Shown here in pieces: positions 451 to 18,811 of a stretch of 33,788 bases of DNA. The stretch lies in NCBI GenBank assembly GCA_020627965.1, contig JAHDFX010000047.1:1-33788 (forward strand). The letters are read 5' to 3'. The notes under the pieces are model-generated. The model worked only from the letters and a program-made list of their open reading frames with translations. It had not been told where the DNA came from and did no database searches. Both the position numbers and the translations under genes were made by a program. The number at the start of each line of letters is the position of its first letter. Position 1 is the first letter of the stretch. This DNA is from Saprospiraceae bacterium (GTDB lineage Bacteria > Bacteroidota > Bacteroidia > Chitinophagales > Saprospiraceae).

Positions 451-3400
451 TTACTCACCTAGTTTCACAAACTGTGTAGCATCTGTGTACCAGCCGCTTT
501 CGCCTCTGATAACAACAAAATAACTAGCTTGTGGCAGACGAGTTACATCAACATTGATCGTATTAAGACCAAGTGTAGTAGTAATTGCTTCTACCTGAAC
601 TGTTCTACCTAATGCATCCATGATAACAACCTCAGCATTTTCGTGATCGAAGCTGCTGTTGAAAGTGATATTCATTTGTCCTTTAGTAGGATTCGGGAAT
701 ATCTCAGAGATTGTATTTCCATCTGCACAATCCGTAGAAACATTGACAATGTCAGTGTAAGTAGTTGTACCATCAATATCAACCATTTCCAAACGGTAGT
801 AATTGTCTGCTGACAATTGCGTATCCGTGTAAGAGTAAGTCAGTAGTGAAGTAGAATTACCTGCTGCATCTACTCTTCCGATAGTCGTGAAGCCAAGACC
901 AGTCGTACTCTTCTGAATATTGAAGTGACTAGTTTCTTCTTCCGTTGCTGTAGCCCAGGTCAACAATGCCGTACAATTATCCTCTTCTCCTTTAAAGTAT
1001 GCCAATTCTAGTGGTAATGGTATACCAAATAGAGCAAAGTCATAGGATAAATTACTCGCTTCTGAACCAGGATCTGTCAGGTTAGGTGTTGTATTTGTAA
1101 GACCTTGTGTAGGTATTGCAACTACACCTAATGGATTATCAGCATCAATCAATTCATCACCGCCCGCATCAATAAATGCAGGGAGAACAGGAGTTACACC
1201 CGCACCAAATATACTAGTTGCTTGTACTTGGAAGTCAGGTATACTTACTGTATAAGTAGGTTCTACACCGTCGACTCCATTATAATCTTCATCTAACAGT
1301 AAACCTGTAAATTCATACGCACCATTTGCATCTGTCGTATCAGTAAGTATTATGGTAGTTCCGTCGGGATATGCAATTGTTAATAGAACCTCGACTCCTT
1401 CAACAGGTTGCTCTGGATCAAGCGGATCATTCGGATTCTGAATACCATCTTCTGTTTGAAGCTCTAGCCAAACAATACCACCAATACTAGCAGGCTCAAT
1501 GTAGTAACCAAAGTCAGCAGTTGGATTATCTACCGGATTACCACCACCTAGTGTAATTGCATATGGATCAGTCTGGCTATTATCATCAGCTCCAGGAGTA
1601 CCATTTGTATCCCAATAGCCTTCTAATACGCCATCTTCATCTGTAACATCAACGATGTAATCTACATCATTAGCAGGCAGGTTCGGGAATAAGTATTCAC
1701 CGTTTGCATCCGTAGTCGTTGTAGCAATTACAGATTCTCCCGGATCTACAACACCATTACCATTATCATCAAGGTATAGATCAATAGTTACACCTTCGAA
1801 TCCTGGCTCATCATCATCAGTACCTGGCGTTCCGTCAGGTCCATCAGGTCCATCGTTAACACCATTAGCATTGTGATCTTCCCAGATCAATGTACCGATG
1901 CTACCTGGTGTAGTTGGAACATAACCAAAGTCCTGATCTAAGTCTTCTCCGGCAGTTGGTAACGTAGTATCAGACTCACTATCATTTCCGCCATCAGGAT
2001 CAACACTGTTGGCCACCCCTGGAGGTAATGTAGATTCATCTACCACTACAGTATAATCATCTGCTGGTAAGTTACCGAAATAATAATTACCATTTTCATC
2101 AGTTTCAGTAGTACCTACCTGATCGCCATTACCATCAAATAAATCAACAGTAACACCTTCGATTCCTTCTCCTGGATCCGGTTGTCCGTTACCATTAAAA
2201 TCAAGGAATACTTCATCACCGATTATTCCATCTACACCTGGCTCCTGTCCTTTAGGTGTATAACCGAAGTCCTGATCCAGATCATCAGCAGGTAGATCAG
2301 AAACTGAAGACATGTCGTCGTTTCCACCATCAGGATCACCTGAGTTCTCCAAGCCAGCCAATACATTGTCTGTATCTGTAACTTCAACTGTATATGCTTC
2401 ATCTGGCAGACCTGTGAACAGGTACTCACCATTTTCGTCAGTAGTTGTGGTAGCGATAATGTTACCAGCAGCATCTTCCAGTGCAAGAGTTACACCTGGG
2501 ATACCTTCATCACCTGGATCCTGAGTTCCGTCTCCGTTAGCATCGAAGTATACTGTGTCACCAATATCATTATTATTCATTGGATCAATGTAACCGAAGT
2601 CGATCACTAAAATAACATCACCAGGAGCAGCCAGGATAGGATCACTCATGTTGTCTGGATTAGTTGCAGGCATGCCATACTCATCTGGATCACCCGTCTG
2701 ATCTTTGCTTGCGATACCAGCAGAAGTTGGGTCAACAACTACTACATACTCGCCAGCAGGCAGATTTGTGAAGATATAAGTACCATCTTCTTCAGTGGTA
2801 GTCGTACCACCTAAGTTACCATTTTGATCAGTTGCAGCAAAAACAGGAGAATCTGTAGCAGGATCAATAGTACCATCACCATTGCTATCAGAGTAGATAG
2901 TTACGGTAACACCACCGATACCTGGCTCACCTGGATCCTGAACACCGTCAGCATCAGCATCATGCCAGATTTTATCACCAATTGCAGCAGTACCTGTATT
3001 GTTATCAGGCTGTTCCCAGATATATCCGAAATCACCAGTCAGGTTCTCATCACCTGAAGCCAATGTAATGGTATAACCATTAGTCTGGTTACCAAAGTCA
3101 GCACCAGGATTAACCGGATTAGCTGTTTGAGCCATTCCATCAGGAAGTGTTGTTTCATCAACTGTTACCGTATAAGTACCTGGAGCAAGATCAGAGAATA
3201 AGTAACCACCATCTGTATCTGTTGTTGTACTTCCAACAGGGTTGCCCATGTCATCAGTCAGGTTAACAGTTACATTAGGAATACCAACTTCACCTTCATC
3301 TTGTAAACCATCCTGGTTTTCATCGATCCATACATAGTTACCTAAACTTGCATCCTCTTCTACTGTGTATGCAAAGTCATATGATAAGTGTTCTGGCTCT

Positions 3401-6400
3401 GAACCAGGATCAGTAAGGTTTGGAGTCGTATCACTCAGACCTTGAGCAGGCATAGCAGTTACACCTGCTGGATCATCAGCATCAACAAAGTCATCACCGC
3501 CTGCATCAATAACAGCAACCGGAGTATAGCCTAAATCATCTCCCTGACCAAATACATCAGGTATAGAAACTACATAAGTAGGTTCTCCAGCACCAGCTCC
3601 AGTGTAATCTTCATCCAATAGTAAACCAGTGAATTCGTAAGCACCGTTGGCATCCGTTACATCAGTAAGCGTTACCACAGAACCGTCAGGATATGTAATT
3701 TCTAATTGTACTTCTATACCTGGTACTGGCATTTGATCAGCATCAGCTGGATCCTGAACACCATCTTCTTCAGGCTCAAACCATACAATACCACCAACAC
3801 TTCCTGGCTCAATGTAGTAACCGAAGTCAGCAGTAAAGTTACTTGCCGGGAATGCGCCACCTATTGTGACAGGATATGGATCAGTCTGGCTATTATTATC
3901 AACAGTAGGAGTACCATTTGAATGCCAGTAGCCTTCTAATACACCATTTTCATCTGTAACATCAACGATGTAGTCAGTAGCATCAGTAGCAGGCAGATTC
4001 GGGAACAGGTAGTTACCATTAGCGTCTGTTTCCGTTGTAGCAATTACAGGCTCTCCCGGATCGACAACACCATTGCCATTTTCATCATAGTATAGATCAA
4101 TAGTTACACCTTCGAAGCCTGGCTCATCATCATCAGTACCCGGGATGTTATCAAGTCCGTTAGGTCCGTTATGAATACCATCCACATTATGATCTTCCCA
4201 TATTAGATTACCAATGCTACCAGGTGAATTTGCGACATAACCAAAGTCCTGATCTAAATCTTCGCCACCAGTTGGTAGTGTAGTTTCAGATTCACTGTCG
4301 TTTCCACCATCAGGATCAACACTATTTGTTACGCCTGGAGGTAATGTAGATTCATCTACCACTACAGTATAATCATCTGCTGGTAAATTACCGAAGTAGT
4401 AATTACCATTCTCATCAGTTTCAGTAGTACCTACTGGGCTTCCATTGCTATCGAATAATTCAACAACAACACCTTCGACTCCTTCTCCTGGATCTGGTTG
4501 TCCATTACCATTAAAATCAAGGAATACTTCATTACCCAGAATTCCATCTACACCAGGCTCTTGTCCTTTAGGTGTATAACCGAAATCCTGATCCAAATCA
4601 TCAGCAGGTAGATCTGCAACCGTAGACATATCATCGTTTCCACCATCAGGATCATCTGAATTTTCAAGTCCTGCCAGTACATTATCTGTATCTGTAACAA
4701 CTACTGTATACTCTTCATCTGGCAGACCTGTAAACAGATACTCTCCATTTTCATCAGTTTCAGTAGCAGCGATAATATTACCCATATCATCTTCAAGTGC
4801 AAGAGTTACACCTGGGATACCTTCATCACCTGGGTCCTGAGTTCCGTCTCCATCAGCATCGAAGTATACAGTATCACCAATGTCATTATTATTCATTGGA
4901 TCAATGTAACCGAAATCAGCTATCAGAATAACATCACCTGGAGCTGCCAAAATAGGGTCACTCATGTTATCAGGATTCGTAGCAGGCATACCATACTCAT
5001 CAGGATCACCTGTCTGATCTTTACTAGCGATACCAGCAGAAGCAGGATCAACAACTATAATGTATTCATCAGCAGGTAGATTTGTGAAGATATATGTACC
5101 ATCTTCTTCGGTAGTGGTCGTACCTGTACCTGTATTTCCATTTTGGTCAACAGCGGCTGTAAATGGAGAATCTGTAGCAGGATCGATAACACCGTCACCA
5201 TTACTATCAGAGTAGATAGTTACTGTAACACCACCGATACCTGGCTCACCTGGATCCTGAACACCGTCAGCATCACCATCGTGCCAGATTCTGTCACCAA
5301 TTGCAGCAGTACCTGTATTTCCGTCAGGCTGTTCCCAGATATATCCGAAGTCTCCAGTTAAGTCTTCATCACCAGCATCTAGCGTTATTGTGTAACCATT
5401 AGTCTGGTTACCAAAGTCAGCACCAGGATTAACCGGATTAGTTGTTTGAGCCATTCCATCAGGAAGAGTTGTTTCATCAACTGTTACCGTATAAGTACCA
5501 GGAGCAAGATCAGAGAATAAGTAACCACCTTCTGTATCTGTTGTCATACTTCCAACAGGGTTGCCCATATCATCAGTTAGGTTAACAGTTACATTAGGAA
5601 TACCAACTTCACCTTCATCTTGCAAACCATCTTCATTTTCATCGATCCATACGTAGTTACCTAAACTTGCAGGAACTGGTATGAAACCAAAGTCATAAGA
5701 TAAGTGAGTAGGCTCATCATTAGGATCAGCTTGAGGAGTAGTATCTGTAGCTCCCTGGTCAGCGATACCTTGAACGCCATTAGGATCATCAGCATCCTCT
5801 AAGTCATTTCCGTCAGCATTAACATCTTCCGTTGCAGGTAAGTAATCTGCAGGAGGTGTTATTACTTTTATTTCATAGTATGGCTCATCACCACCACCGG
5901 CCATCGGTGTAGCATATGTACCTGAACCATCATAATCTTCATCTAATAATAGATTTTCAAAAATGTAATGACCAGTAGCATCAGTAACATCAGTTAATGT
6001 AACTACACTGCCATCAGGATAAGTAACCATCAATGTCACTTCAACACCTTCAATACCTGGCTCACCAGCATCCTGAATACCATTATCATTAGTATCTTCA
6101 AATACATAGTTACCTAAAACAGCAGGCTCAACGTAGTAACCGAAATCAGCCGTGAAATCATCAGCTGGATCTGCACCACCTAATGTTACAGCATAAGTAT
6201 CAGTTTGGCTGTTATCATCAGTATTAGGCGCACCTAAGCTGTGCCAGTAACCATTCAGTACCTGATCTTCATCAGTTACATCTACAACATAGTCGTCATC
6301 ATCCGCAGGCAAACCTGGGAATAAGTAATTACCATCTGCATCTGTAGTAGTAGAAGCGATCAGTGATTCTCCTGGATCTACAAGTCCATTACCATTATCA

Positions 6401-9400
6401 TCAGCATACAAATCAATAGTTACACCTTCGATACCTGGCTCATCATCATCATTACCTGGGATGCCATCAGGTCCGTTAGGTCCGTCATTTACACCATCAG
6501 TATTGTTATCTAACCAAACTAGTGTACCAATACTACCTGGATTATCAGCTACATAACCGAAGTCCTGATCTAAATTGATACCATCATTAGTACCATCAGG
6601 ATCATTAGCTAAATCAACAGTAGACTGTCCATCAGGAGCACTGTCAGGATCAACAGTTTGAGTAATGTTTGCAGGAAGTGTAGCTTCGATTACATCTACA
6701 GAGTAATCTTCAGCAGGATCAAGTCCTGGGAAGTAGTAATAACCATTCTCATCTGTAGCAGTAGTGCCAATAACATTACCAGCAGCATCATGCAATTCAA
6801 CAGTTACACCTTCGATACCTTCTCCTGGATCTGGAGCACCATTACCATTATAATCAAGGAATACCTGGTCTCCAATAAGACCTTCTCCTGGATCTTGATT
6901 TTCAGGAGTATATCCGAAATCTTGATCTAGATCATCAGCACCTGCGAGTGTAACTTCTGACATACCGTCATTTCCACCGTCAGGATCTTCTGTATTTACC
7001 AAATCATCCAATACATTGTCTGTATCATTAATCATTACGGTATAAGTACCATCAGGTAAACCTGGGAATAAGTACTCACCATTTTCATCAGTTACTGTAG
7101 TAGCAATAACATCACCGTTATCATCAGTTAATTTAACAGTAACACCTGCGATACCTGGCTCATTAGGATCTTGAGTCTCATCAGCATCAGCATCAAAGTA
7201 TACAGTATCACCTATATCATTATTATTAGGATTGGTATAACCAAAGTCTAAATTCGTGTAGTTGTCACCAGGGCCAATAAGAACCGGATCACTCATATTA
7301 TCAGGATTCATGGCAGTCATGCCCGGCTCATCAGGATCACCTGTCTGGTCTTTATCCTGAATACCAGCAGAGTTAGGATCTACTACTACGATATACTGAC
7401 CTGCAGGCAGACCTGTAAAGTTGTAGCTTCCGTCAGGTTCTGTAGTTGTCGTACCTGTACCTGTAGCTCCATTTTGATCAATGGCTCCAGTAAATGGAGA
7501 ATCTGTAGCAGGATCAACAACGCCATCGCCATTGCTATCACCATAAATAGTCACTGTAACTCCACCAATTCCAGCTTCGCCTAAATCCTGAACACCGTCA
7601 GCATCAGCATCACGCCAGATTCTGTCACCAAGTGCGCCTAAACCACTATTACCTGGAGCATCACCGTAGTTGTAACCAAAGTCACCAGTCATATTTTCAT
7701 CAACATCATCACCTGTTTGGTTTAGTGTAATTGCGTAGCCATTAGTTTGGTTACCAAAATCACTACCAGCATTAACCGGGTTAGTTGTTTGAGTATAGCC
7801 ATCTGGCAAAGTAGTTTCATCTACAGTTACTACATAATCACCAGCAGGTAGATCAGGGAAAATATAACCACCGTTTGCGTCAGTTACTGTAGTTTCAGTA
7901 GCATCACCAGTCAGGTTAACTGTAACACCAGGAATACCAGGCTCACCTGCATCCTGAATACCATTACCGTTTTCATCTAACCATACGTAGTTACCAATCG
8001 CACCATCACAACCTTCGATCTCAACACAAAGCTCCTGGCTAACTTCCATACTCATTTCGTCTATAGCCGTTACTGTGTAACAACCTGGATCTAAGTCTGG
8101 ATAAACAGCAGGATATTGACACTCAGGTGGGAAGTTAACAGAGTAAGAACCACCTTCTGAACCAACAACACCAGGACCAGCTACATCATCGTAGTAAATG
8201 ATCTCGATCTCATCAATACAGTTAGTAAATTCAAATAGAACACCACCGTCATTAGTATTATTTAAACCTGTATCATTAATAGATTCAAATTGATTTGTTC
8301 CTACAACAGTTACATTTGACCCCGTTAGAGTAAAATCAGCCGGAGATAAAGCAACTGGATTACCATCATTATATACATTAACAACAGCAACATCATTATT
8401 ATCAATATCATTCAGGAACATAGACAAATCACAAACATCTCTGTCGAAAGTAAATGTACGTGTCATGTTCGCTTCGCCAGCACCAGTACCACCTGTAAGT
8501 TCGTTATGGTCAACTCCTGTACGAAGTGCGAAAGTACCATTCAATTGAGAATCATCGATAATCTCTTCATCAATAGAAGCACCACCAGCAAATACAACAT
8601 CATTAATGGTCATAGTAGCTCCTCTTACAATAAAGAAGGAGTTATTAATAGCATCTTCCACAATAGAATTGTCAACACCTCCAGCAACTGGATTAGCACC
8701 AGTACCATTTAAAGTCTGGAAATTTGCCCAATTAACTTCTGTGCAAGGTGTTGGTATTGGTAATGGATCGCCATTAGAATCTTCCCAGTAGTAGAAAGGA
8801 CCACCAACTCCGCTTGCGTCCAAATCACCTGTAGTTGCAGTACAAGGATCACAGTTAGTAGCAGGATCAACAGTATAGCTTGCAGTAGCTGTGCTACCGT
8901 TTGCATCCGTTACGACTACAGTATAAGTATCAGCAGGAAGACAAGTTAAATCTTCTGGACACTGTGCAGGGAAAGCGATCGTGTATGAACCACCTTCTGT
9001 ACCTACAACACCAGGTCCAGCTACATCATCATAAAAGACAATTTCGATCTCATCAATAGGACCAGCGAAATTGAAGAAAATAGAACCATCAAGGCTAGGT
9101 CCAAGTGGAGCATCTGTGATAGATTCAAATTCATTAGCATTTACCTGATTCACATTAGAACCAGTAGAAGCAATATCACTTGCCAAAATAGGCAGTGTAG
9201 TACCCGCTAATTTAGGTCTGATAATCGCGTAATCATTGTTATCCATATCATTGAATAACATTTCCAGATTAGAAACTGGTGGGTTGAAAGTCATGGTACG
9301 AGTCATGCTCGCTGCATTCTCTCCACCTACAAGATCTGGATGATCAACACCAGTACGAAGACCGACATAAGCAGTTTGCTGGCTATTATTGATAATCTCT

Positions 9401-11559
9401 TCATCAAGCGTAGCGCCACCACTGAATGTTACTGGATTAACTGTCAGGGTAGAACCTTTGATAACATAACCTTCTGCATTAATAGCAGTTGTTACATCTA
9501 CAGCTGTTCCATTCAATGAAGCAAAAGCCTGTTCTTCACAAGGAGGATTTACAGGAGCACCATTTGAGGAAGTCCACGCATAAGAATATGGAGGATTACC
9601 ACCTGTAACTGTAAGGTCAATAGCACCATCACTGTCCGCAGGACAAGGTGCAGGCGTACAGCTCACATTTGTTCCAGTAATTGAAACTTCAGGAGGAGCA
9701 CAATTAGGAGCAGGATCAACAATAAAGCTTTCAGTGCTTGTGTTTCCAGCCGCATCAGTCACAACGACTGTATAAGTATCAGCAGGAAGACAAGTCAAGT
9801 CTTCTGGGCATTGTGCAGGGAAAGCGATCGTGTATGAACCACCTTCTGTACCTACAACACCTGGGCCAGCAACATCATCATAAAAAATAATCTCAAGCTC
9901 ATCAATAGGACCAGAGAAGTTGAAGAAGACAGAACCAACTAAAGTATTATTCAAACCAGAATCAGTAATTGACTCAAATTGATTTGTTCCAACACGTAAA
10001 ACATTAGCACCTATAGAACTAACATCTCCTGCTGGAATTGACTGAATGACTCCTCCCAATTTAGGATTAACAATAGCAACATCATTGTTATCTAAGTCAT
10101 TAAGTAACATTTCTAAATTAGAAACAGGAGGATTGAAAGTCAGGGTACGTGTAATATTAGCAGCGGCAGGGCCACCAACAATATCGCCATGATCAACACC
10201 TGTACGAAGACCAATAAAGCCTGCTTGCTGACTGTTGTCAACAATCTCTTCATCGATAGAAGCACCACCATTGAATACAGCCTGATTGATCGTCAGGGTA
10301 GAGCCTTTGATTACATAGCCCTCTGCATTAATAGCATCTTCTACAACAGTGTTGTCAGCTCCGACAACAGGATTAGCTCCTAAGCCACTCTGAGCAGCAA
10401 AAGCTTGATCTTCACAAGGAGGATTTAAAGGCGTTCCTGCTGAAGATGTCCATGCATAAGAATATGGAGCAACTCCACCTGTGACAGAAAGATTGATAGA
10501 ACCATCACTATCTGCCGGACAAGGACTAGGAGTACAGGTCACATCACCAACAATACCCGTAATTTCTGGGTTTGTACAAGCAGGGGAAGGATTAATAGTA
10601 AAACTATCAGTCGCTGTGTTTCCATCTGCATCAGTCACAACTACTGTATAAGTATCAGCAGGAAGACAAGTTAAATCTTCTGGACACTGTGCAGGGAAAG
10701 CGATCGTGTATGAACCACCTTCTGTACCTACAACGCCTGGCCCAGCTACATCATCATAAAAAATGATCTCAACCTCATCAATAGGGCCAGAGAAGTTGAA
10801 TAAGATACCACCTGTTAAAACATTATTTAAGCCTGCATCAGTAATCGACTCAAATTGGTTTGTTCCAACACGAAGAACATTAGCTCCGATAAAAGAAATG
10901 TCTCCCGAAGGAATTGACTGCGTTACTCCCCCTAATTTAGGATTAATAATCGCAACATCATTGTTATCCAAGTCATTGAATAACATCTCCAGATTAGATA
11001 CCGGAGGACTAAAAGTCAGCGTACGTGTAATATTGGCTGCGCCAACACCCCCAACAATATCGCCGTGGTCAACACCAGTACGAAGGCCGACATAAGCTGC
11101 TTGCTGACTGTTGTCAACAATCTCTTCATCGATAGAAGCACCACCACTGAATACAGCCTGATTAACCGTCAGGGTAGAGCCTTTAATTACATAGCCCTCT
11201 GCATTAATAGCATCTTCTACAACAGTGTTGTCAGCTCCGACAACAGGGTTCGCACCCAAACCCGCTAAAGCAGCAAAAGCCTGTTCTTCGCAAGGCGGAT
11301 CTACGGGCGTTCCGACCGAAGATGACCATGCATACGAGTATGGAGCAGTACCTCCTGTCACTGTGAGATCGATAGCACCATCACTGTCTGTTGGACAGGG
11401 GGCTGGATCACAACTCACATCAGAGACCGTTGCACTCAAGGTTTGTGCATTCAGATTGGCGGAAACGCCAACCAACATGCAAAACGCCAACAGTCCGGCA
11501 ACGAACTGAAAACGCCAGAGACTAATGCCTCTGTTGTGTGTAAAGGTTAGATTTCTCAT
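451..11559 (-). CDS. Giant T9SS-secreted surface protein with SprB-like and SdrD_B repeats
   Basis: 3702-residue predicted cell-surface or secreted protein. Residues 1-38 are a signal peptide (hydrophobic 18-33, cleavage probably after NLNA). Residues 40 to about 1187 hold four SprB-like units (VSC...DGAIDLTVTGG...PYSYAW...LPADTYTVVVTD), each interrupted by a module of about 200 residues. Residues 1188 to about 3510 hold 18 SdrD_B/Cna-B-like domains, each opening with (I/L)GN-x-V-W-x-D-x-(N/D)-x-(N/D)-G and closing with DFGY or a variant, rich in Asp runs that suggest calcium binding. Residues about 3513-3610 look FnIII-like (LLTWATATEEETSHFNIQKS). Residues about 3619-3702 are a type A T9SS sorting domain (FPNPTKGQMNI ... 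ASYFVVIRG). Such proteins serve in adhesion or surface-layer functions; the ligand is unknown. The gene stands alone, divergent from the GH13 gene and followed by a strong terminator. Confidence 0.93.
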   Translation of the reverse strand: MRNLTFTHNRGISLWRFQFVAGLLAFCMLVGVSANLNAQTLSATVSDVSCDPAPCPTDSDGAIDLTVTGGTAPYSYAWSSSVGTPVDPPCEEQAFAALAGLGANPVVGADNTVVEDAINAEGYVIKGSTLTVNQAVFSGGASIDEEIVDNSQQAAYVGLRTGVDHGDIVGGVGAANITRTLTFSPPVSNLEMLFNDLDNNDVAIINPKLGGVTQSIPSGDISFIGANVLRVGTNQFESITDAGLNNVLTGGILFNFSGPIDEVEIIFYDDVAGPGVVGTEGGSYTIAFPAQCPEDLTCLPADTYTVVVTDADGNTATDSFTINPSPACTNPEITGIVGDVTCTPSPCPADSDGSINLSVTGGVAPYSYAWTSSAGTPLNPPCEDQAFAAQSGLGANPVVGADNTVVEDAINAEGYVIKGSTLTINQAVFNGGASIDEEIVDNSQQAGFIGLRTGVDHGDIVGGPAAANITRTLTFNPPVSNLEMLLNDLDNNDVAIVNPKLGGVIQSIPAGDVSSIGANVLRVGTNQFESITDSGLNNTLVGSVFFNFSGPIDELEIIFYDDVAGPGVVGTEGGSYTIAFPAQCPEDLTCLPADTYTVVVTDAAGNTSTESFIVDPAPNCAPPEVSITGTNVSCTPAPCPADSDGAIDLTVTGGNPPYSYAWTSSNGAPVNPPCEEQAFASLNGTAVDVTTAINAEGYVIKGSTLTVNPVTFSGGATLDEEIINNSQQTAYVGLRTGVDHPDLVGGENAASMTRTMTFNPPVSNLEMLFNDMDNNDYAIIRPKLAGTTLPILASDIASTGSNVNQVNANEFESITDAPLGPSLDGSIFFNFAGPIDEIEIVFYDDVAGPGVVGTEGGSYTIAFPAQCPEDLTCLPADTYTVVVTDANGSTATASYTVDPATNCDPCTATTGDLDASGVGGPFYYWEDSNGDPLPIPTPCTEVNWANFQTLNGTGANPVAGGVDNSIVEDAINNSFFIVRGATMTINDVVFAGGASIDEEIIDDSQLNGTFALRTGVDHNELTGGTGAGEANMTRTFTFDRDVCDLSMFLNDIDNNDVAVVNVYNDGNPVALSPADFTLTGSNVTVVGTNQFESINDTGLNNTNDGGVLFEFTNCIDEIEIIYYDDVAGPGVVGSEGGSYSVNFPPECQYPAVYPDLDPGCYTVTAIDEMSMEVSQELCVEIEGCDGAIGNYVWLDENGNGIQDAGEPGIPGVTVNLTGDATETTVTDANGGYIFPDLPAGDYVVTVDETTLPDGYTQTTNPVNAGSDFGNQTNGYAITLNQTGDDVDENMTGDFGYNYGDAPGNSGLGALGDRIWRDADADGVQDLGEAGIGGVTVTIYGDSNGDGVVDPATDSPFTGAIDQNGATGTGTTTTEPDGSYNFTGLPAGQYIVVVDPNSAGIQDKDQTGDPDEPGMTAMNPDNMSDPVLIGPGDNYTNLDFGYTNPNNNDIGDTVYFDADADETQDPNEPGIAGVTVKLTDDNGDVIATTVTDENGEYLFPGLPDGTYTVMINDTDNVLDDLVNTEDPDGGNDGMSEVTLAGADDLDQDFGYTPENQDPGEGLIGDQVFLDYNGNGAPDPGEGIEGVTVELHDAAGNVIGTTATDENGYYYFPGLDPAEDYSVDVIEATLPANITQTVDPDSAPDGQSTVDLANDPDGTNDGINLDQDFGYVADNPGSIGTLVWLDNNTDGVNDGPNGPDGIPGNDDDEPGIEGVTIDLYADDNGNGLVDPGESLIASTTTDADGNYLFPGLPADDDDYVVDVTDEDQVLNGYWHSLGAPNTDDNSQTDTYAVTLGGADPADDFTADFGYYVEPAVLGNYVFEDTNDNGIQDAGEPGIEGVEVTLMVTYPDGSVVTLTDVTDATGHYIFENLLLDEDYDGSGTYATPMAGGGDEPYYEIKVITPPADYLPATEDVNADGNDLEDADDPNGVQGIADQGATDTTPQADPNDEPTHLSYDFGFIPVPASLGNYVWIDENEDGLQDEGEVGIPNVTVNLTDDMGNPVGSMTTDTEGGYLFSDLAPGTYTVTVDETTLPDGMAQTTNPVNPGADFGNQTNGYTITLDAGDEDLTGDFGYIWEQPDGNTGTAAIGDRIWHDGDADGVQDPGEPGIGGVTVTIYSDSNGDGVIDPATDSPFTAAVDQNGNTGTGTTTTEEDGTYIFTNLPADEYIIVVDPASAGIASKDQTGDPDEYGMPATNPDNMSDPILAAPGDVILIADFGYIDPMNNNDIGDTVYFDADGDGTQDPGDEGIPGVTLALEDDMGNIIAATETDENGEYLFTGLPDEEYTVVVTDTDNVLAGLENSDDPDGGNDDMSTVADLPADDLDQDFGYTPKGQEPGVDGILGNEVFLDFNGNGQPDPGEGVEGVVVELFDSNGSPVGTTETDENGNYYFGNLPADDYTVVVDESTLPPGVTNSVDPDGGNDSESETTLPTGGEDLDQDFGYVANSPGSIGNLIWEDHNVDGIHNGPNGLDNIPGTDDDEPGFEGVTIDLYYDENGNGVVDPGEPVIATTETDANGNYLFPNLPATDATDYIVDVTDENGVLEGYWHSNGTPTVDNNSQTDPYPVTIGGAFPASNFTADFGYYIEPGSVGGIVWFEPEEDGVQDPADADQMPVPGIEVQLEITYPDGSVVTLTDVTDANGAYEFTGLLLDEDYTGAGAGEPTYVVSIPDVFGQGDDLGYTPVAVIDAGGDDFVDADDPAGVTAMPAQGLSDTTPNLTDPGSEPEHLSYDFAYTVEEDASLGNYVWIDENQDGLQDEGEVGIPNVTVNLTDDMGNPVGSTTTDTDGGYLFSDLAPGTYTVTVDETTLPDGMAQTANPVNPGADFGNQTNGYTITLASGDENLTGDFGYIWEQPDNNTGTAAIGDKIWHDADADGVQDPGEPGIGGVTVTIYSDSNGDGTIDPATDSPVFAATDQNGNLGGTTTTEEDGTYIFTNLPAGEYVVVVDPTSAGIASKDQTGDPDEYGMPATNPDNMSDPILAAPGDVILVIDFGYIDPMNNNDIGDTVYFDANGDGTQDPGDEGIPGVTLALEDAAGNIIATTTTDENGEYLFTGLPDEAYTVEVTDTDNVLAGLENSGDPDGGNDDMSSVSDLPADDLDQDFGYTPKGQEPGVDGIIGDEVFLDFNGNGQPDPGEGIEGVTVDLFDGNGDQVGTTETDENGNYYFGNLPADDYTVVVDESTLPPGVANSVDPDGGNDSESDTTLPTAGEDLDQDFGYVPTTPGSIGTLIWEDHNANGVNDGPDGPDGTPGTDDDEPGFEGVTIDLYLDDNGNGVVDPGESVIATTTTDANGEYLFPNLPANDVDYIVDVTDEDGVLEGYWDTNGTPGADDNSQTDPYAITLGGGNPVDNPTADFGYYIEPASIGGIVWLELQTEDGIQNPNDPLDPEQPVEGVEVLLTIAYPDGTTIILTDTTDANGAYEFTGLLLDEDYNGVDGVEPTYTVSIPDFQVQATSIFGAGVTPVLPAFIDAGGDELIDADNPLGVVAIPTQGLTNTTPNLTDPGSEASNLSYDFALFGIPLPLELAYFKGEEDNCTALLTWATATEEETSHFNIQKSTTGLGFTTIGRVDAAGNSTSLLTYSYTDTQLSADNYYRLEMVDIDGTTTYTDIVNVSTDCADGNTISEIFPNPTKGQMNITFNSSFDHENAEVVIMDALGRTVQVEAITTTLGLNTINVDVTRLPQASYFVVIRGESGWYTDATQFVKLGE
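1030..3345 (-). repeat. SdrD_B super-repeat 3 (six domains, residues ~2739-3510)
   Basis: Third block, about 772 residues. Domain openings are LGNYVWIDENQDGLQD, IGDKIWHDADADGVQD, IGDTVYFDANGDGTQD, IGDEVFLDFNGNGQPD, IGTLIWEDHNANGVND and IGGIVWLELQTEDGIQN. The last domain is longer and more diverged and runs into the FnIII-like module. Confidence 0.85.
3346..5664 (-). repeat. SdrD_B super-repeat 2 (six domains, residues ~1966-2738)
   Basis: Second block, about 773 residues. Domain openings, in the same order as block 1, are LGNYVWIDENEDGLQD, IGDRIWHDGDADGVQD, IGDTVYFDADGDGTQD, LGNEVFLDFNGNGQPD, IGNLIWEDHNVDGIHN and VGGIVWFEPEEDGVQD. Long runs are identical in block 3, at both DNA and protein level. 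Confidence 0.85.
5665..7998 (-). repeat. SdrD_B super-repeat 1 (six domains, residues 1188-1965)
   Basis: First of three consecutive blocks, each of six different SdrD_B domains in the same order. Opening motifs of the six are IGNYVWLDENGNGIQD, LGDRIWRDADADGVQD, IGDTVYFDADADETQD, IGDQVFLDYNGNGAPD, IGTLVWLDNNTDGVND and LGNYVFEDTNDNGIQD. Block length is about 778 residues. This block differs more from the other two than they do from each other. Confidence 0.85.
8002..8859 (-). repeat. Divergent SprB-like unit 4 with inserted module (residues ~901-1186)
   Basis: Fourth and most diverged copy. The SprB front half is replaced by a sequence with FYYWEDSNGDPLPIP, but the insert is recognisable (ALRTGVDH, VCDLSMFLNDIDNND, YYDDVAGPGVVGSEGGSYSV). 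It ends in a modified back half, DLDPGCYTVTAIDE. It connects the SprB-like region to the SdrD_B region. Confidence 0.72.
8860..9699 (-). repeat. SprB-like unit 3 with inserted module (residues ~621-900)
   Basis: Third copy, slightly shorter: the GLGANPVVGADNTVVED segment of units 1 and 2 is replaced by the shorter NGTAVDVTTAI. The rest of the insert is conserved (GLRTGVDH, PPVSNLEMLFNDMDNND, YDDVAGPGVVGTEGG). The shared 20-nt stretch is at 8966-8985. Confidence 0.78.
9700..10569 (-). repeat. SprB-like unit 2 with inserted module (residues ~331-620)
   Basis: Second copy of the SprB-plus-insert unit, about 290 residues. It keeps every landmark of unit 1: the CTPSPCPADSDG opening, the Cys at the start of the insert, PPVSNLEMLLNDLDNND, and YDDVAGPGVVGTEGG. 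The same 20-nt stretch occurs at 9825-9844, about 866 bp from the copy in unit 1. Confidence 0.8.
10570..11442 (-). repeat. SprB-like unit 1 with inserted module (residues ~40-330)
   Basis: Coding repeat. The first half of an SprB-type repeat (residues 40-81, ending PYSYAWSS) and its second half (299-322, LPADTYTVVVTDADGN) are separated by about 215 residues running from Cys90 to Cys292/Cys298. The insert contains GLRTGVDH, PPVSNLEMLFNDLDNND and YDDVAGPGVVGTEGGSYTI. Boundaries are approximate. Units 2 and 3 match it closely, including an identical 20-nt stretch, gcagggaaagcgatcgtgta, at 10691-10710. Confidence 0.8.
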
Positions 11560-12190: not shown

Positions 12191-14566
12191 ATGATGAAAA
12201 TCAACACTTTACAAACAAGTTTACTTGTCTTACTCCTGGCTTTTGGCTGTCACATGTCAAATGAAAATAATTTCAAAAAAAATACAGATAACCTTAAATT
12301 CATCGGCTTGATTCCTCCTATTATAGCAGACGATACAAGTAAGCTCTTTATGGAAGACTATTTCACTGATTTATCCTCAATAGATTCCGTAACGAGTTCT
12401 TCTTTAGCCTTACAGTTATCTCCCAACAAGAAGGAACTTATCCTCAATACCAATGAGCAAACTCCTATATTGTCAGAATTGAAAATATGGGTAAGAAAAC
12501 AGCCTATTTCTTTTCTCATCAAAAAATCTAATAAAAAGCTGGTGAACATCAGCTTCAAATTAGAGCGCAAATATACAAAAGTACTTATCAAAGGACAGTT
12601 TAATAACTGGCTTTCAGAACCCATGACGTTAAGTACTGAAGGTCAGCTAGAAAAATCCTTTTACCTTTCTCCGGGTAATTATCAATACAAAATAATTCTT
12701 GACGACAAGGAAATTAGTGACCCTTCCAATCCTAATATTATTAGCAATGGCATGGGAGGTACTAATTCTCTATTGATTATTCCCAAAACTCCAAATGAGC
12801 AACTTCCAAACCTATTCACGAAACAATTATCAGAAGGAGGGCTTCGCATTGGTTTTGTCAATAAGCCTATGGAAGTATTTGCTTTTCTGCAAAATAAGCG
12901 CATTAAAACGAATATACATAACAATAATGAAATAATTATCCATCTCCCTAAAGAAGCTAGTTCTCAAGAACGTACTCATTTACGAATATGGGCTTATAAT
13001 GAGGCGGGTATTAGCAATGATCTGCTCATCCCTTTGGAGAACGGACAGCCCATATCTGATACGGATAAATTGAAGAGAAGCGACTTACAATATATGCTTA
13101 TGTATTTTGCACTTATAGATCGTTTTCATAATGGAAAATTGAATAATGACGACCCCATCAATGATAAACGTCTGAGGTCTATACAAAACTATATGGGTGG
13201 TGATCTTTCAGGGATTTCAAAAAAAATAAAGGAGGGTTACTTTGATCGTCTTGGTATTAATACGCTCTGGTTATCTCCTCTCACACAAAATCCTTATGAA
13301 GCCTGGCAGGAATTTCCTGAGCCTCGTCGTTGGTATTCGGGTTACCACGGCTATTGGCCGATATCAAGTTCAAAAGTAGACCACCGACTCGGTACGGACG
13401 AAGATTTGAAAGAATTGGTTAAGACCGCACATGAACACGAGATTAATATCTTCTTGGATTATGTTTGCAATCATGTACATAAAAACCACCCTATCTATCA
13501 GAAGCACCCAGAATGGACCACTTCTTTTGATTTGCCTGATGGTTCTAAAAATATCAGAATTTGGGAAAAGCAAAGACTTACTACCTGGTTCGATGAGTTC
13601 TTGCCTACACTTGACCTCTCAAACCCTGAAGCTATTGAAGCCCAGACAGATTCTGCTATATACTGGATCAAAGAATACAACCTTGATGGTTTTCGTCATG
13701 ATGCGACCAAACATATACCAGAAGAATTTTGGCGCAGCCTCACCCGAAAGCTTAAGCAGGAAGTCATGATTCCACAAGATCGTTATATATATCAGATCGG
13801 AGAAACTTATGGCAGTCATGAATTAATTGCTCAATATATTGGTCCTGGATTATTGGACGCTCAGTTTGATTTTAACCTTTATTTTACTTCACGTGATGCT
13901 TTTATTAAGGAAGATCAATCTATGGAAATCGTGGCAAATGCGCTTATGGAATCACTTAGTTGGTATGGACACCATCATACCATGGGCAACATCACAGGAA
14001 ACCACGATCAATCCAGATTTATGGGACTTGCAAGTGGAGCAGTTCGTTATGATGAAAATCATGTAGAGGCAGGTTTTAACAGGAACATACAAGTAAAAGA
14101 TACTAAAGGTTATTTAACATTGAGCAATTATTTTGCTTTCGTAATGACCATTCCCGGAGTCCCGACTATTTTATATGGTGATGAAATAGGTATGGTTGGT
14201 GCGGGTGATCCGGACAATCGTCGTATGATGCGATTCGACAGTTTAAGTCGCTTTGAAAACAGAACCAGAACAATTGTCAGTCAATTGACTCAACTTCGTA
14301 AAAACCATCTTGCACTAAGCTATGGAGATTTCATTATGCTGCATGCTGATAAAAACGTATTGGCTTATGCCAGAAATTATTTTGGAGAAACTGTTATTGT
14401 TGTTATTAACAAGGGAGGAAGAGAAAAGATCAGTTTTTACATTCCCGAATACCTCAATATAGACTCTCTGAAAAATCAATTTAATACTGGTAACATCAAT
14501 ATCGACAACCGTAAAGCTTCCATTAGTCTACCTGAGCGAAGTTTCGAAATATTTATTAACCAATAA
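12191..14566 (+). CDS. GH13 family alpha-glucan hydrolase lipoprotein
   Basis: 791-residue alpha-amylase-superfamily enzyme, expected to cleave alpha-1,4 (or alpha-1,6) glucosidic bonds in starch- or glycogen-like glucans at the cell envelope. Residues 1-20 form a lipoprotein-type signal (LLLAFGC, Cys20). A CBM48/AMPK-type glycogen-binding-like domain lies at about 125-197 (VLIKGQFNNWL ... GNYQYKIILD), followed by a second beta-rich segment at about 215-290. The TIM barrel spans about 300-690 with all four GH13 signatures: DYVCNH (423-428), GFRHDATKH with nucleophile Asp504, IGETYG with acid/base Glu538, and GNHD with Asp606. A C-terminal beta domain ends the protein. The catalytic triad is intact. 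No SusC/SusD pair is adjacent, so this is not a standard starch-utilisation locus. A MORN protein gene follows after 8 bp. Amylase, neopullulanase or cyclomaltodextrinase specificity cannot be separated by eye. Confidence 0.9.
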   Translation: MMKINTLQTSLLVLLLAFGCHMSNENNFKKNTDNLKFIGLIPPIIADDTSKLFMEDYFTDLSSIDSVTSSSLALQLSPNKKELILNTNEQTPILSELKIWVRKQPISFLIKKSNKKLVNISFKLERKYTKVLIKGQFNNWLSEPMTLSTEGQLEKSFYLSPGNYQYKIILDDKEISDPSNPNIISNGMGGTNSLLIIPKTPNEQLPNLFTKQLSEGGLRIGFVNKPMEVFAFLQNKRIKTNIHNNNEIIIHLPKEASSQERTHLRIWAYNEAGISNDLLIPLENGQPISDTDKLKRSDLQYMLMYFALIDRFHNGKLNNDDPINDKRLRSIQNYMGGDLSGISKKIKEGYFDRLGINTLWLSPLTQNPYEAWQEFPEPRRWYSGYHGYWPISSSKVDHRLGTDEDLKELVKTAHEHEINIFLDYVCNHVHKNHPIYQKHPEWTTSFDLPDGSKNIRIWEKQRLTTWFDEFLPTLDLSNPEAIEAQTDSAIYWIKEYNLDGFRHDATKHIPEEFWRSLTRKLKQEVMIPQDRYIYQIGETYGSHELIAQYIGPGLLDAQFDFNLYFTSRDAFIKEDQSMEIVANALMESLSWYGHHHTMGNITGNHDQSRFMGLASGAVRYDENHVEAGFNRNIQVKDTKGYLTLSNYFAFVMTIPGVPTILYGDEIGMVGAGDPDNRRMMRFDSLSRFENRTRTIVSQLTQLRKNHLALSYGDFIMLHADKNVLAYARNYFGETVIVVINKGGREKISFYIPEYLNIDSLKNQFNTGNINIDNRKASISLPERSFEIFINQ

Positions 14567-14574
14567 ACTTTATT

Positions 14575-15321
14575 ATGAAACATTACAAATATCTACTCAC
14601 ATTAATAAGCATGATCTGCGGATATACATCGTATGCACAGGATTGCAAAGTATTGATGCCCGAAATCGCTGTTATTTATGAAGGCGCATGCAAAAAAGGA
14701 CTAGCACATGGAAAAGGTACAGCCAAAGGTGAAAATGTATATGAAGGTAATTTCAAAAAAGGTTTACCACACGGGCAAGGACGTTATGTCTATGACAAAG
14801 GTGTTGGGTATCAAGGTGAATGGAAAGCCGGAAATCGTCACGGATATGGAGTTTTTGTGGATGAAGAAGGCAACCGTTACACTGGTGAATGGAAAGATGA
14901 TATGCGACATGGAGAAGGTTCTTATTATGTAAAAACCGCAGATGGCGATACCACCTATACTGGTATATGGGAACAGGACAAATATATTGGAGAGAAGCCC
15001 GAACGCCCTTATCTCATTGTCAGTCGAAGAAGTATTGACAGAGTTACTATGCGCAGAGTAGGTGATGGGAATCAACTTACGATCAAGATTATGCAGGGAG
15101 GAATGCCCAATATGACTGTTCAGGATTATCGTTTTCAATGGAGCAGTGGCAACGAACTCATTCTGAATCAAAATGCCAGAGGTTGGCAAAATTTAATTTA
15201 TCCATTTGAGGGAAGGATTGTTTATACAACAGCTAATAAATTAAGGACGTCTTATTACACTGTTCAGCTTGAATTTAAAATAAATCAGCCTGGAGAATGG
15301 GAGTTAATACTGCATAATTAA
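14575..15321 (+). CDS. Exported MORN-repeat protein
   Basis: 248 residues with a signal peptide (about 1-21, ending TSYAQ). Residues about 35-140 contain four to five MORN repeats with the pattern Y-x-G-x-(W/F)-x-x-G-x-x-H-G-x-G: YEGACKKGLAHGKG, YEGNFKKGLPHGQG, YQGEWKAGNRHGYG, YTGEWKDDMRHGEG and a degenerate YTGIWEQDKYIG. The remaining 100 residues are a beta-rich tail with no recognised family. MORN repeats form elongated beta sheets and often act as scaffolds or lipid-binding surfaces; the role here is unknown. The gene starts 8 bp after the GH13 gene on the same strand, so co-expression is likely. Confidence 0.88.
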   Translation: MKHYKYLLTLISMICGYTSYAQDCKVLMPEIAVIYEGACKKGLAHGKGTAKGENVYEGNFKKGLPHGQGRYVYDKGVGYQGEWKAGNRHGYGVFVDEEGNRYTGEWKDDMRHGEGSYYVKTADGDTTYTGIWEQDKYIGEKPERPYLIVSRRSIDRVTMRRVGDGNQLTIKIMQGGMPNMTVQDYRFQWSSGNELILNQNARGWQNLIYPFEGRIVYTTANKLRTSYYTVQLEFKINQPGEWELILHN

Positions 15322-15589: not shown

Positions 15590-16978
15590 ATGAAGAGAAT
15601 ACTGACTACACTCTGTGTACTTATGTTTGTATTTCCACTACACATAAAAGCACAGACCTATCAAGACTATTTTGGTAATGGTCATTCAATTGGCATCAGT
15701 GCAAGTGGCAGTGATCTGACAAACGCCAATGACGCCATAAACTCCATTAATGGAACAGACATTCTACCCGACCTCGCAGGTGCTTCCCGCTTTCTGGCAC
15801 AAGCTACGCTAGGATATAATTATGAAACAATTGAGTATGTAAGCCAGATAGGCATCAAGGAATGGCTGGATGAACAATTATCAATGGGCTTCATCCCCTT
15901 TACTGATGGCTACGACAGCATCTACAGCGATGTAAATAATACAATAGGCTCGCTAGATGATGGTAAGGAAGATGAATATCTGGGTTATAATTTCTATGAA
16001 AAAACACTCAAAGAACAAGATTATTTGCGCCAGAAAGTAGCTTATGCACTCAATCAAATCCTTGTTGTTTCTTATGATGTTAGCAGTAATAATGACCGAA
16101 GCGATGGTAATTCAGATTATTATAATGTGCTTTACGATGGAGCTTTCGGTAATTACAGAGATATGCTTCAGGAAGTTACTATGCATCATTCTATGGGTTT
16201 ATACCTCAGTACTTTTGGCAATCGTAAAGCCGATTTCATACTAGGTACTTATCCCGATGAAAATTATGCCAGGGAGGTGATGCAACTTTTCACAATAGGG
16301 CTACATGAATTAAACAATGATGGTACGCTAAAATTAGATGAAAATGGCGATCTCATTCCCACCTACGATATAAAAGATATTCAGGAGTTATCAAAAGTAT
16401 TTACGGGATTAGGTCCGGCAGAGCGACTAGATGGGTCAACGGTCTATTATACGACAAGCCTTGGCAATCTAAATTGGAGAGTTAATATGGCCATGTATGA
16501 ACTCTATCATGACAAAACTGAAAAAGTCATGATAGATGGCACTGTACTTCCGGCAGGTCAACCAGGATTACAAGATGTCAATGATGCCCTTGATATAATT
16601 TTCAATCACCCCAATGTAGGCCCCTTCGTCAGTACCCGCCTGATTCAGCAAATGGTAAAATCCAATCCAAGTCCAGCTTATATCAATCGGGTAGCCACTG
16701 TTTTCAACAATAATGGTGCTGGAGTTCGTGGTGATATGGGGGCTGTAGTAAAAGCAATCCTGCTTGATCCTGAGGCACGCAACTGTCAATGGATAGAACA
16801 TGCCCAAAGCGGCAAACTACTACAGCCACTCGAAAGAATAATTGGGCTTTTCGTTGCCTTCGACCTGCAAACACCTAGTGGTAGAATTTATTTTAAAGAC
16901 AAAAATGCACTCCTTGACGATCTGGGCCAAGCTTTTATGGCATCACACAGTGTTTTCAATTTCTTCTCTCCATGCTGA
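15590..16978 (+). CDS. DUF1800 family secreted protein, N-terminal part (frameshifted)
   Basis: 462 residues ending prematurely. Residues 1-21 are a signal peptide (MKRILTTLCVLMFVFPLHIKA). The DUF1800 signature follows: ASRFLAQATLGYNYETIEYV and IKEWLDEQLS near residues 63-100, then NYAREVMQLFTIGLHELN around 225-242, and HSVFNFFSP just before the stop. Family members normally continue through this motif into a (V/A)PEF segment. Here the frame runs into TGA (16976-16978), while the expected continuation (MVSPEFQIL) is in the +1-shifted frame from about 16974. DUF1800 genes are typically paired with a DUF1501 gene, which is found just downstream. The biochemical function of the family is not established. 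The shift is either a real mutation, a sequencing error or recoding. Confidence 0.85.
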   Translation: MKRILTTLCVLMFVFPLHIKAQTYQDYFGNGHSIGISASGSDLTNANDAINSINGTDILPDLAGASRFLAQATLGYNYETIEYVSQIGIKEWLDEQLSMGFIPFTDGYDSIYSDVNNTIGSLDDGKEDEYLGYNFYEKTLKEQDYLRQKVAYALNQILVVSYDVSSNNDRSDGNSDYYNVLYDGAFGNYRDMLQEVTMHHSMGLYLSTFGNRKADFILGTYPDENYAREVMQLFTIGLHELNNDGTLKLDENGDLIPTYDIKDIQELSKVFTGLGPAERLDGSTVYYTTSLGNLNWRVNMAMYELYHDKTEKVMIDGTVLPAGQPGLQDVNDALDIIFNHPNVGPFVSTRLIQQMVKSNPSPAYINRVATVFNNNGAGVRGDMGAVVKAILLDPEARNCQWIEHAQSGKLLQPLERIIGLFVAFDLQTPSGRIYFKDKNALLDDLGQAFMASHSVFNFFSPC

Positions 16979-17390
16979 AAAGGAATATGTAGCGCCTAAT
17001 GATATGGTATCTCCTGAGTTTCAAATCCTCAGCTCAACCTCTAGTATAGATTACCTCAATATCATGGAATACATGCTGACAAGAAAACCTTTTGATAATA
17101 AAACATTGATTCAAGAAGACAGTACAGGAACAATGACGAATCCTGATGATGAGCCATTTCTTGATTTCAGTGATGAAATTACTATCCTCGATAATGATGG
17201 TGTCATACCAATGCTGGATAGATTAAATATACTCCTTTGCAGAGGCCAACTTTCTCCTGAATCAAAGTCTATTATCAAAAATGCCATTGACCAGTACAGA
17301 GCTGGAGTCGTTGATTTTACAAGTGAAGATGCTGTTAAAGCTGCTATCTATCTTATCATGGCCTCACCCGATTATATGATCCTTAAATAA
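16974..17390 (+). pseudogene. DUF1800 family protein, C-terminal part in shifted frame
   Basis: About 138 residues continue the DUF1800 protein in another frame: AEKEYVAPNDMVSPEFQIL, then YLNIMEYMLTRKPFDN and a helical C-terminus ending AAIYLIMASPDYMILK, the usual family ending (the last two helices and SPDYM). An ATG in this frame exists at 16842, but the residues before about 16974 do not resemble the family, so independent translation from it is unlikely. Joining the frames needs removal of one base or addition of two near 16973. The DUF1501 start lies 8 bp after this stop, so the pair is still arranged as an operon. Confidence 0.8.
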
Positions 17391-17398
17391 AAACTGAT

Positions 17399-18811
17399 AT
17401 GTCAGGTAAATTATACGAAAGAAGACAATTTTTAAGACAATTAGGACTCGGATGTGCAAGTGTTGGAGCAACAACATTATTATCCGGTATCACCAATATG
17501 GGCTTACTCAATGCTGCCGCAGCAGCCAACATGCCTTATTACCGCCCAAATAACGATTATAAAGCATTAGTCTGTATCCTACTATCAGGGGGAAATGACA
17601 GCTATAATATGTTGGTTCCAAAGGGCGATGATGAATATGCTGATTATGCAAATATCCGAACCAATCTTAAAATAGAACAAAACCAACTGCTGGAACTTAA
17701 TCCGCTTAACCCCGATGGTAAAACCTATGGATTACATCCCAGCATGCCCAATATCCAAAACATGTTCCATGCTGGTAATTTAGCTTTTATTGCAAATATC
17801 GGTGCATTGGTACAGCCTACTACTGTAAGTAGCTTCAATGCAGCTCAAAATCTTCCACTCGGTTTATTTTCTCATTCCGACCAAAAACAACATTGGCAAA
17901 CCTCAATTCCTACAGATAGAAATGCCAATGGTTGGGGAGGGCGACTCGCAGATATTTTATATACGGGCAATACCAACCAGAATGTATCCATGAATGTCTC
18001 GCTGAACGGGGTGAATATCTTTCAAACAGGTAATACCGTGCAGCCTTACAGTATTAATCACTCAGGTGGAGGTTCTGTATTACTTAATGGTGCCACCAGT
18101 AATGGGCTTTATGAGGTATTGAAAAGACAATCTCTGGATAGTCTTCTGGAGGCGAGCTATCAAAATATTCTTGAAACAGCTTACACCAATACTGTAAAAG
18201 GCTCTAAGAACAACTCTTTCGAGTTCAACGCAGCGATATCCAATGTGCCTGAATTCACTACTACTTTTAGTGATGATACATTCTCTAAAAGACTCAAGAT
18301 GGTAGCAAAAACCATAGCTGCGAGAGATACACTTGGCTTTAATCGTCAGACCTTCTTCGTTCAGTTAGGTGGTTTTGACACACATGATGATATTCTACAA
18401 AGACATAGTGATCTCATGCTTGAATTAGATACTGCCTTACAGTCTTTCTATAATGTATTGGTAGAACTGGGAATGGAAAATAATGTAACTACTTTTACGA
18501 TTTCTGATTTTGCAAGAAAACTGGTTTCTAATGGCGATGGTTCTGATCATGCCTGGGGCGGACATGCTATGGTTATGGGCGGCGCAGTAAATGGTCAGAC
18601 TATCTATGGGCAATATCCCGACCTGTACCCTGGTCATTCGCTCGACATCGGTACAGGCAGAATTATTCCAACTACTTCTTGCGATGAATATTTTGCTGAC
18701 CTGGCACTCTGGTTTGGAGCTTCTCACTCCGACTTAAACCAAATTTTACCTAACATCAATAATTTCTGGACACCAGTTGCAGGAGCTACGCCCCTTGGAA
18801 TATTGTCTTAA
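17399..18811 (+). CDS. DUF1501 family protein with Tat signal
   Basis: 470 residues. The N-terminus has a twin-arginine signal (ERRQFLRQLG, Arg8-Arg9) followed by a hydrophobic stretch, indicating export in folded form. The body matches the DUF1501 family, which is related to the sulfatase/alkaline phosphatase fold: ALVCILLSGGNDSYNMLVP (about 57-75), LFSHSDQKQHWQT (about 157-169), the VQLGGFDTHDD motif (about 322-332), and DHAWGGHAMVMGG (about 383-395). The Asp and His clusters are those expected to bind metal, but enzymatic activity for the family is not established. It lies 8 bp after the DUF1800 gene and 10 bp before the haem/dockerin-like protein gene, so these three form one transcription unit. 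Confidence 0.9.
   Translation: MSGKLYERRQFLRQLGLGCASVGATTLLSGITNMGLLNAAAAANMPYYRPNNDYKALVCILLSGGNDSYNMLVPKGDDEYADYANIRTNLKIEQNQLLELNPLNPDGKTYGLHPSMPNIQNMFHAGNLAFIANIGALVQPTTVSSFNAAQNLPLGLFSHSDQKQHWQTSIPTDRNANGWGGRLADILYTGNTNQNVSMNVSLNGVNIFQTGNTVQPYSINHSGGGSVLLNGATSNGLYEVLKRQSLDSLLEASYQNILETAYTNTVKGSKNNSFEFNAAISNVPEFTTTFSDDTFSKRLKMVAKTIAARDTLGFNRQTFFVQLGGFDTHDDILQRHSDLMLELDTALQSFYNVLVELGMENNVTTFTISDFARKLVSNGDGSDHAWGGHAMVMGGAVNGQTIYGQYPDLYPGHSLDIGTGRIIPTTSCDEYFADLALWFGASHSDLNQILPNINNFWTPVAGATPLGILS

Follow-up and report, generated by a model that had tools for sequence, protein, structure and literature searches.

Annotation of the giant repeat proteins of Bacteroidota rarely goes beyond 'SprB repeat' or 'SdrD_B', and gives no indication of their targets. 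The DNA stretch studied here (the window, i.e., 33,788 nucleotides of contig JAHDFX010000047.1 from a Saprospiraceae bacterium, assembly GCA_020627965.1) encodes such a protein of 3702 aa. The original prediction, made from the sequence alone, had proposed that between positions 8002 and 11442 four consecutive SprB-like repeats carry, in place of a short loop, a module of about 200 residues, the repeat thus acting as a modular scaffold that presents a domain. What is this module, and what would a split repeat be for? The answer that we favor, at about two chances in three, is a static fibrillar adhesin with a type A sorting domain of the type 9 secretion system (T9SS), whose N-terminal tip would carry four lectin-like heads budding from split SprB repeats, above a stalk of about 18 SdrD_B-like domains.

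The N-terminus of the open reading frame (ORF) consists of four units of about 280 aa each, and the predicted span corresponds to residues 40-1186, that is, to four units with inserts of 194-209 aa. Cys90, Cys292, Cys298 and both quoted motifs (one of them YDDVAGPGVVG) are indeed present in the translation. A Pfam scan of the ORF detected three SprB stretches at the N-terminus (PF13573, 68.3 bits for a cut-off of 28, E 4e-19), as well as 18 matches to SdrD_B and one to the Por secretion tail. The coordinates are collected in Table 1; no RNA families were found in the window.

Table 1. Features of the 3702-aa ORF, in window coordinates.
Feature	Residues	Position	Strand	Basis
Giant T9SS-secreted adhesin-like ORF, 3702 aa		451..11559	-	Pfam and NCBIfam
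N-terminal leader, probable signal peptide	~1-38	11446..11559	-	by eye: hydrophobic stretch, end SANLNAQ
Unit 1, first SprB half	51-80	11320..11409	-	SprB model 6-35, 34.7 bits
Unit 1 insert, 203 aa	Cys90-Cys292	10684..11292	-	folded alone (AlphaFold2)
Unit 1, second SprB half	295-323	10591..10677	-	SprB model 41-69, 10.8 bits
Unit 2, first SprB half	341-374	10438..10539	-	SprB model 4-37, 32.0 bits
Unit 2 insert, 203 aa	Cys382-Cys584	9808..10416	-	
Unit 2, second SprB half	587-614	9718..9801	-	SprB model 41-68, 9.0 bits
Unit 3, first SprB half	634-671	9547..9660	-	SprB model 5-40, 33.1 bits
Unit 3 insert, 194 aa	Cys674-Cys867	8959..9540	-	
Unit 3, second SprB half	870-898	8866..8952	-	SprB model 41-69, 12.0 bits
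Unit 4, degenerate first SprB half, GGPFYYWEDSNG	~904-938	8746..8850	-	placed from translation and orthologous last units; undetected by SprB model
Unit 4 insert, 209 aa	Cys939-Cys1147	8119..8745	-	
Unit 4, second SprB half, weak	1156-1174	8038..8094	-	SprB model 45-63, 0.3 bits
Stalk, ~18 SdrD_B-like domains, approximate bounds	~1186-3570	850..8004	-	PF17210, 18 stretches, E 4e-276
T9SS type A C-terminal sorting domain	3620-3690	490..702	-	PF18962 E 1.5e-14; TIGR04183 40.6 bits, cut-off 23

The repeats were analyzed with a full-length SprB model of 76 aa, built from 26 ordinary repeats of the source genome and its order. These measure 67-79 aa, mostly 75-78, and are therefore slightly shorter than the 80-90 residues first supposed. 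We observed that units 1-3 each match the model as two consecutive, ordered pieces (approximately 4-40, then 41-69), the first halves at 32-35 bits and the second at 9-12 bits, for a maximum of 6.5 bits among 500 shuffled sequences. The space between the pieces is exactly filled by the 194-209-aa module. The module does take the place of the SprB loop, and its flanks do match SprB repeats, in order. Since the pieces abut at model positions 37-41, the insertion point lies approximately there, in the loop that follows Y-x-Y-x-W. No description of an interrupted SprB repeat was found in the open-licence literature, as judged by title and abstract. The source genome is otherwise extremely rich in SprB repeats, with at least 150 scored matches and 764 first-look candidates.

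In unit 4, the first half has no match to the SprB model and the second half matches it weakly. Judged by orthology, this unit counts as SprB, because the last units of three related loci (L059, L060, and L055) keep a recognizable first half and form a neighboring branch. Moreover, the nearest relatives of the unit 4 insert in the tree are last units from other genomes. In the unit alignment, identity to unit 1 is 83% for unit 2, 72% for unit 3 and 49% for unit 4; from these comparisons, units 1-3 are tandem duplicates. Units 1 and 2 are recent duplicates. AlphaFold2 predicts the full unit with a pLDDT of 85.4 and a pTM of 0.77, and five strands are listed for its SprB part (E3-9, E24-31, E38-43, E265-272, and E278-285). 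The two SprB halves would pair in one Ig-like fold, since they are colinear with intact repeats.

The insert was said to be unrecognizable as a named domain, which holds for families, none being found in Pfam or NCBIfam, and not for the fold, whose class is recognizable. Predicted alone by AlphaFold2, the insert forms one compact beta-sandwich (pLDDT 86.7, pTM 0.87). Among solved structures, its top match is the antigen I/II V-region (Z 9.4, rmsd 4.0, 171 aligned residues), a score modestly higher than the best Z of 7-8 that is typical of models without a clear match. GbpC and PrgB come next (Z 8.6 for both), and these three matches have an rmsd of about 4.0 over 168-175 residues. They are followed, at Z 6.4-7.8, by CBM4-2 (7.8), DUF4465 (7.8), the gingipain Kgp K2 adhesin domain (7.0) and many other carbohydrate-binding modules (CBMs). 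Foldseek gives low TM-scores (TMq 0.33-0.39 for the best rows, 0.33-0.38 for the antigen I/II, GbpC and PrgB folds). Because a Z near 9 is only modestly above background, we claim a fold class and no family: the predicted insert would belong with the jelly-roll, lectin-like sandwiches.

In the full-unit search, most rows align residues 53-255 approximately, which is essentially the insert, and this, with its compact prediction when folded alone, bears out the idea of a separate domain. The full unit also matches 9q5u, a 'carbohydrate binding module and split domain' of Aeromonas salmonicida (Z 7.0). The SdrD/ClfA N-domains came first in Foldseek for the full unit, with a TM of about 0.15 and an rmsd of about 25, look like artefacts of a two-domain overlay and were set aside. 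On the sequence side, the insert matches no curated CBM family (Pfam, NCBIfam), its profile matches no solved chain up to E 10, and neither a ligand nor recognized binding-site residues were found for it. PF23834 (DUF7204) was dropped as a candidate family, being hit by one relative only, at E 0.038, below the cut-off. A viral origin or spread was also rejected: no relative encoded on viral contigs was found, and the structure matches to phage tail proteins were weak and generic.

The cysteines that bracket the module had been taken as a possible clamp at its base. Cys residues are present at both ends in 49/49 intact copies, nested in SprB or not, and the C-terminal column is invariant (47/47 copies). 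Being kept in every context, the bracket is, according to these alignments, part of the insert domain itself, and its role as an insertion device was rejected; the bracket stands, its specificity for the insertion does not. A Cys90-Cys292 disulfide is plausible. Inside the insert, the equivalents of Cys 188/259 occur together in 26 of the 47 copies and those of 191/255 in nine, never singly in either case. The position sums of the two pairs (447 and 446) fit neighboring antiparallel strands, and both pairs are located within or beside strands of the insert model. Each pair reflects no more than two or three independent changes, and the support that they give to the predicted fold is suggestive.

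The scaffold shows a cysteine change of its own. Among the 26 ordinary SprB repeats, a Cys is found in the second half (tDxxxC) of 21 and near the start of 24. Nearly all the listed nested copies are without the tDxxxC Cys and show a new one (LTC, Cys298 in unit 1) just before the L-x-x-G-Y strand, whereas L053 retains the ordinary pattern. Hence, Cys298 may take over the pairing with the first SprB half, leaving Cys90-Cys292 to the insert.

Does the insert domain occur outside SprB, a check that the original prediction had asked for? It does. In four loci, it is the sole sizeable domain between leader and tail of T9SS proteins of about 420 aa, one of which (L041) is encoded by the source genome itself. 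In eight others, it is placed, flanked by Cys, between calcium-type DxDxDG repeats of long proteins, and it is found in other settings in three more (L065, L070, and L075). The longest protein of the DxDxDG context is a 9016-aa open frame (G005:C33). By profile and sequence searches, the insert domain is present in all examined genus-mates, and one further genus of the family has it nested in SprB. More distant copies, some of them partial, were found in 14 of 395 genomes sampled from the phylum, and a single-sequence search recovered the insert in 5 of 398 genomes of the order. The analysis defines an uncurated domain family with three contexts.

In related genomes, nested head units are carried by varied stalks (11 loci), for instance by SdrD_B domains in L034 and by about 30 HYR domains in L040, an indication that heads and stalks have been shuffled among these genomes. 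In most nested proteins, the insert is at the N-terminal end. The source genome also has a paralogue with two nested inserts (contig C222, 8521-10004), in which the frame shifts inside the second insert; its open frames are of 496 and 2610 aa, which reflects either a true frameshift or a fault in the assembly.

In a tree of 47 insert copies, whose root was not inferred, the 23 SprB-nested copies make up one side of a branch (support 86/94, present in 82% of bootstrap trees). The nested clade adjoins the copies located between DxDxDG repeats, and the free copies are near. Because the nested copies form one clade, the simplest account that the tree suggests is a single capture by a SprB repeat, then tandem amplification and spread to stalks of the SdrD_B (L034) and HYR (L040) types. 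This would be a clear case of domain capture, with the likely donor contexts still in the same genomes. The comparison of units gives dN/dS values of 0.14-0.22 for the main part of the insert and of 0.13-0.28 for the SprB halves; by these values, both are under purifying selection, and a pseudogene-like decay of the extra units was rejected, the ratios being well below 1.

The C-terminal tail of the protein indicates its route. It is of type A (TIGR04183, PF18962), and the type B signature expected of a SprB ortholog (TIGR04131) was not found in it. SprA, the T9SS translocon, is present in the source genome. In Flavobacterium johnsoniae, SprB carries a type B tail and is routed to the gliding machinery with its own SprF shuttle, while proteins with type A tails depend on PorV and are either anchored statically or released (PMC12618676). 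When the SprB tail was replaced by the type A tail of RemA, SprB became immobile (PMC12618676). The membership of our protein among the SprB gliding adhesins was rejected on account of its type A tail. No PorP/SprF-like gene was found among the ten neighboring genes scanned, and 450 bases of contig remain beyond the stop codon.

We thus propose that the four-insert region probably forms the adhesive tip of a long fiber. Each head would bud from the loop between the Y-x-Y-x-W and L-x-x-G-x-Y-T-V strands, the SprB repeat being the split scaffold. The two ends of the insert would be held next to each other at the scaffold, probably linked by the terminal Cys pair of the domain, while its far face would point outward to a ligand, most likely a glycan. 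The SdrD_B-like domains would form the stalk, with the heads at its distal, N-terminal tip, and the four copies would confer avidity. The type A sorting domain would direct type 9 secretion and then, by analogy with F. johnsoniae, static anchoring instead of loading onto the gliding motor. The analysis shows the sequence architecture, the separate predicted folding of the insert, its occurrence outside SprB, the single clade of the nested copies, the purifying selection, the type A tail and the presence of SprA; we infer the pairing of the SprB halves in one fold, the outward projection, the binding, the glycan nature of the ligand and the static anchoring. The modular presentation of a domain at a repeat loop, as first supposed, is supported by both the sequence architecture and the predicted fold.

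Other roles for the insert have to be weighed against this static, multivalent adhesin. Jelly-roll sandwiches may serve purely structural roles, and a shared fold alone does not prove function. The insert could then be a spacer or protective domain that makes the tip thicker or stiffer, or covers the SprB loops, with no specific binding. The evidence on the fold, a common jelly-roll with middling Z, would suit this, as would the copies located between the DxDxDG repeats of long proteins, where spacing would suffice. However, in the small T9SS proteins no other sizeable domain follows the leader, and the insert has nothing to space; its N-terminal position in most nested proteins and its best fold matches, which are adhesin heads, also argue against a spacer, and we regard this explanation as unlikely.

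Several of the structure matches being CBMs of glycosidases, the insert might also bind glycans on behalf of a secreted system that degrades polysaccharides, its anchoring serving feeding rather than adhesion, all the more so as an alpha-amylase-like gene adjoins the ORF (window 12191-14566). This is quite improbable: Pfam detects no catalytic domain in the 3702-aa protein or in the scanned free 420-aa form, the amylase gene is on the opposite strand, and multi-domain SdrD_B or HYR stalks are typical of surface adhesins. The least probable reading, to which we give very little credit, is that the protein serves gliding motility as SprB does, with the insert gripping the substrate. The SprB repeats and SprA are there for it, but the tail is type A, and both the distinct tail and SprF of F. 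johnsoniae SprB and the effect of the RemA tail swap (PMC12618676) argue against it, as does the lack of a PorP/SprF-like gene among the scanned neighbors on this contig, which ends just past the stop codon. The reading as a static multivalent adhesin is preferred because type A tails anchor or release statically, while the type B tail of SprB serves gliding (PMC12618676).

The closest precedent is found in RTX adhesins (AhLap, FrhA, and MpIBP), whose ligand-binding domains were recognized by their emergence from split Ig-like domains; these keep both ends close to each other and turn the binding face outward (PMC12077191, PMC10865825). Here also, a predicted self-folding, lectin-like beta-sandwich would leave the loop of an Ig-like scaffold in a putative giant fibrillar adhesin, its ends presumably side by side. 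On the contrary, the scaffold is SprB, the split unit is repeated in four consecutive copies, secretion is of type 9 and not of type 1, and the insert is uncurated. Indeed, the Pfam scan of the ORF detected no RTX family, and a T9SS tail stands in place of the RTX beta-roll and type 1 secretion. The protein would combine the principle of a split-repeat adhesin head with a different scaffold, a different secretion route and a domain family that is uncurated. We tentatively consider, at a little less than even odds, that splitting a repeat to bud a ligand-binding head arose independently in the type 9 adhesins of Bacteroidota, where a circulating lectin-like domain, free or flanked by calcium-type repeats, would have been captured once by a SprB repeat, tandemly amplified and moved onto other stalks (SdrD_B, HYR, and others). 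Should split SprB repeats mark binding heads, in the way that split domains do for RTX adhesins, a search for interrupted repeats could reveal heads in many giant proteins of this kind.

The other likenesses are partial. Antigen I/II (V-region), GbpC and PrgB are, like the proposed protein, fibrillar and tipped by heads, which are the best structural matches of the insert, but these heads are larger, are carried by Gram-positive wall-anchored proteins and share about 10% identity with it. With the SprB repeat proteins of Bacteroidota (PF13573), the likeness is that of both halves to ordinary repeats, which differ in having neither a domain of about 200 aa in the loop nor the new LTC Cys (Cys298), and in keeping the tDxxxC one. 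The stalk domains resemble those of the MSCRAMMs SdrC and SdrD, whereas the head is different, the tail is of the T9SS and the score is far below the curated cut-off (570.8 vs 2500 bits for SdrD).

Beyond the ORF, the adjoining alpha-amylase-like gene (plus strand) encodes an AMPK1_CBM-type domain and, as for a DUF1800/DUF1501 pair (window 15590-18811, plus strand), has no evident link to the adhesin. A MORN-repeat protein of 248 aa is encoded at window positions 14575-15321, on the plus strand.
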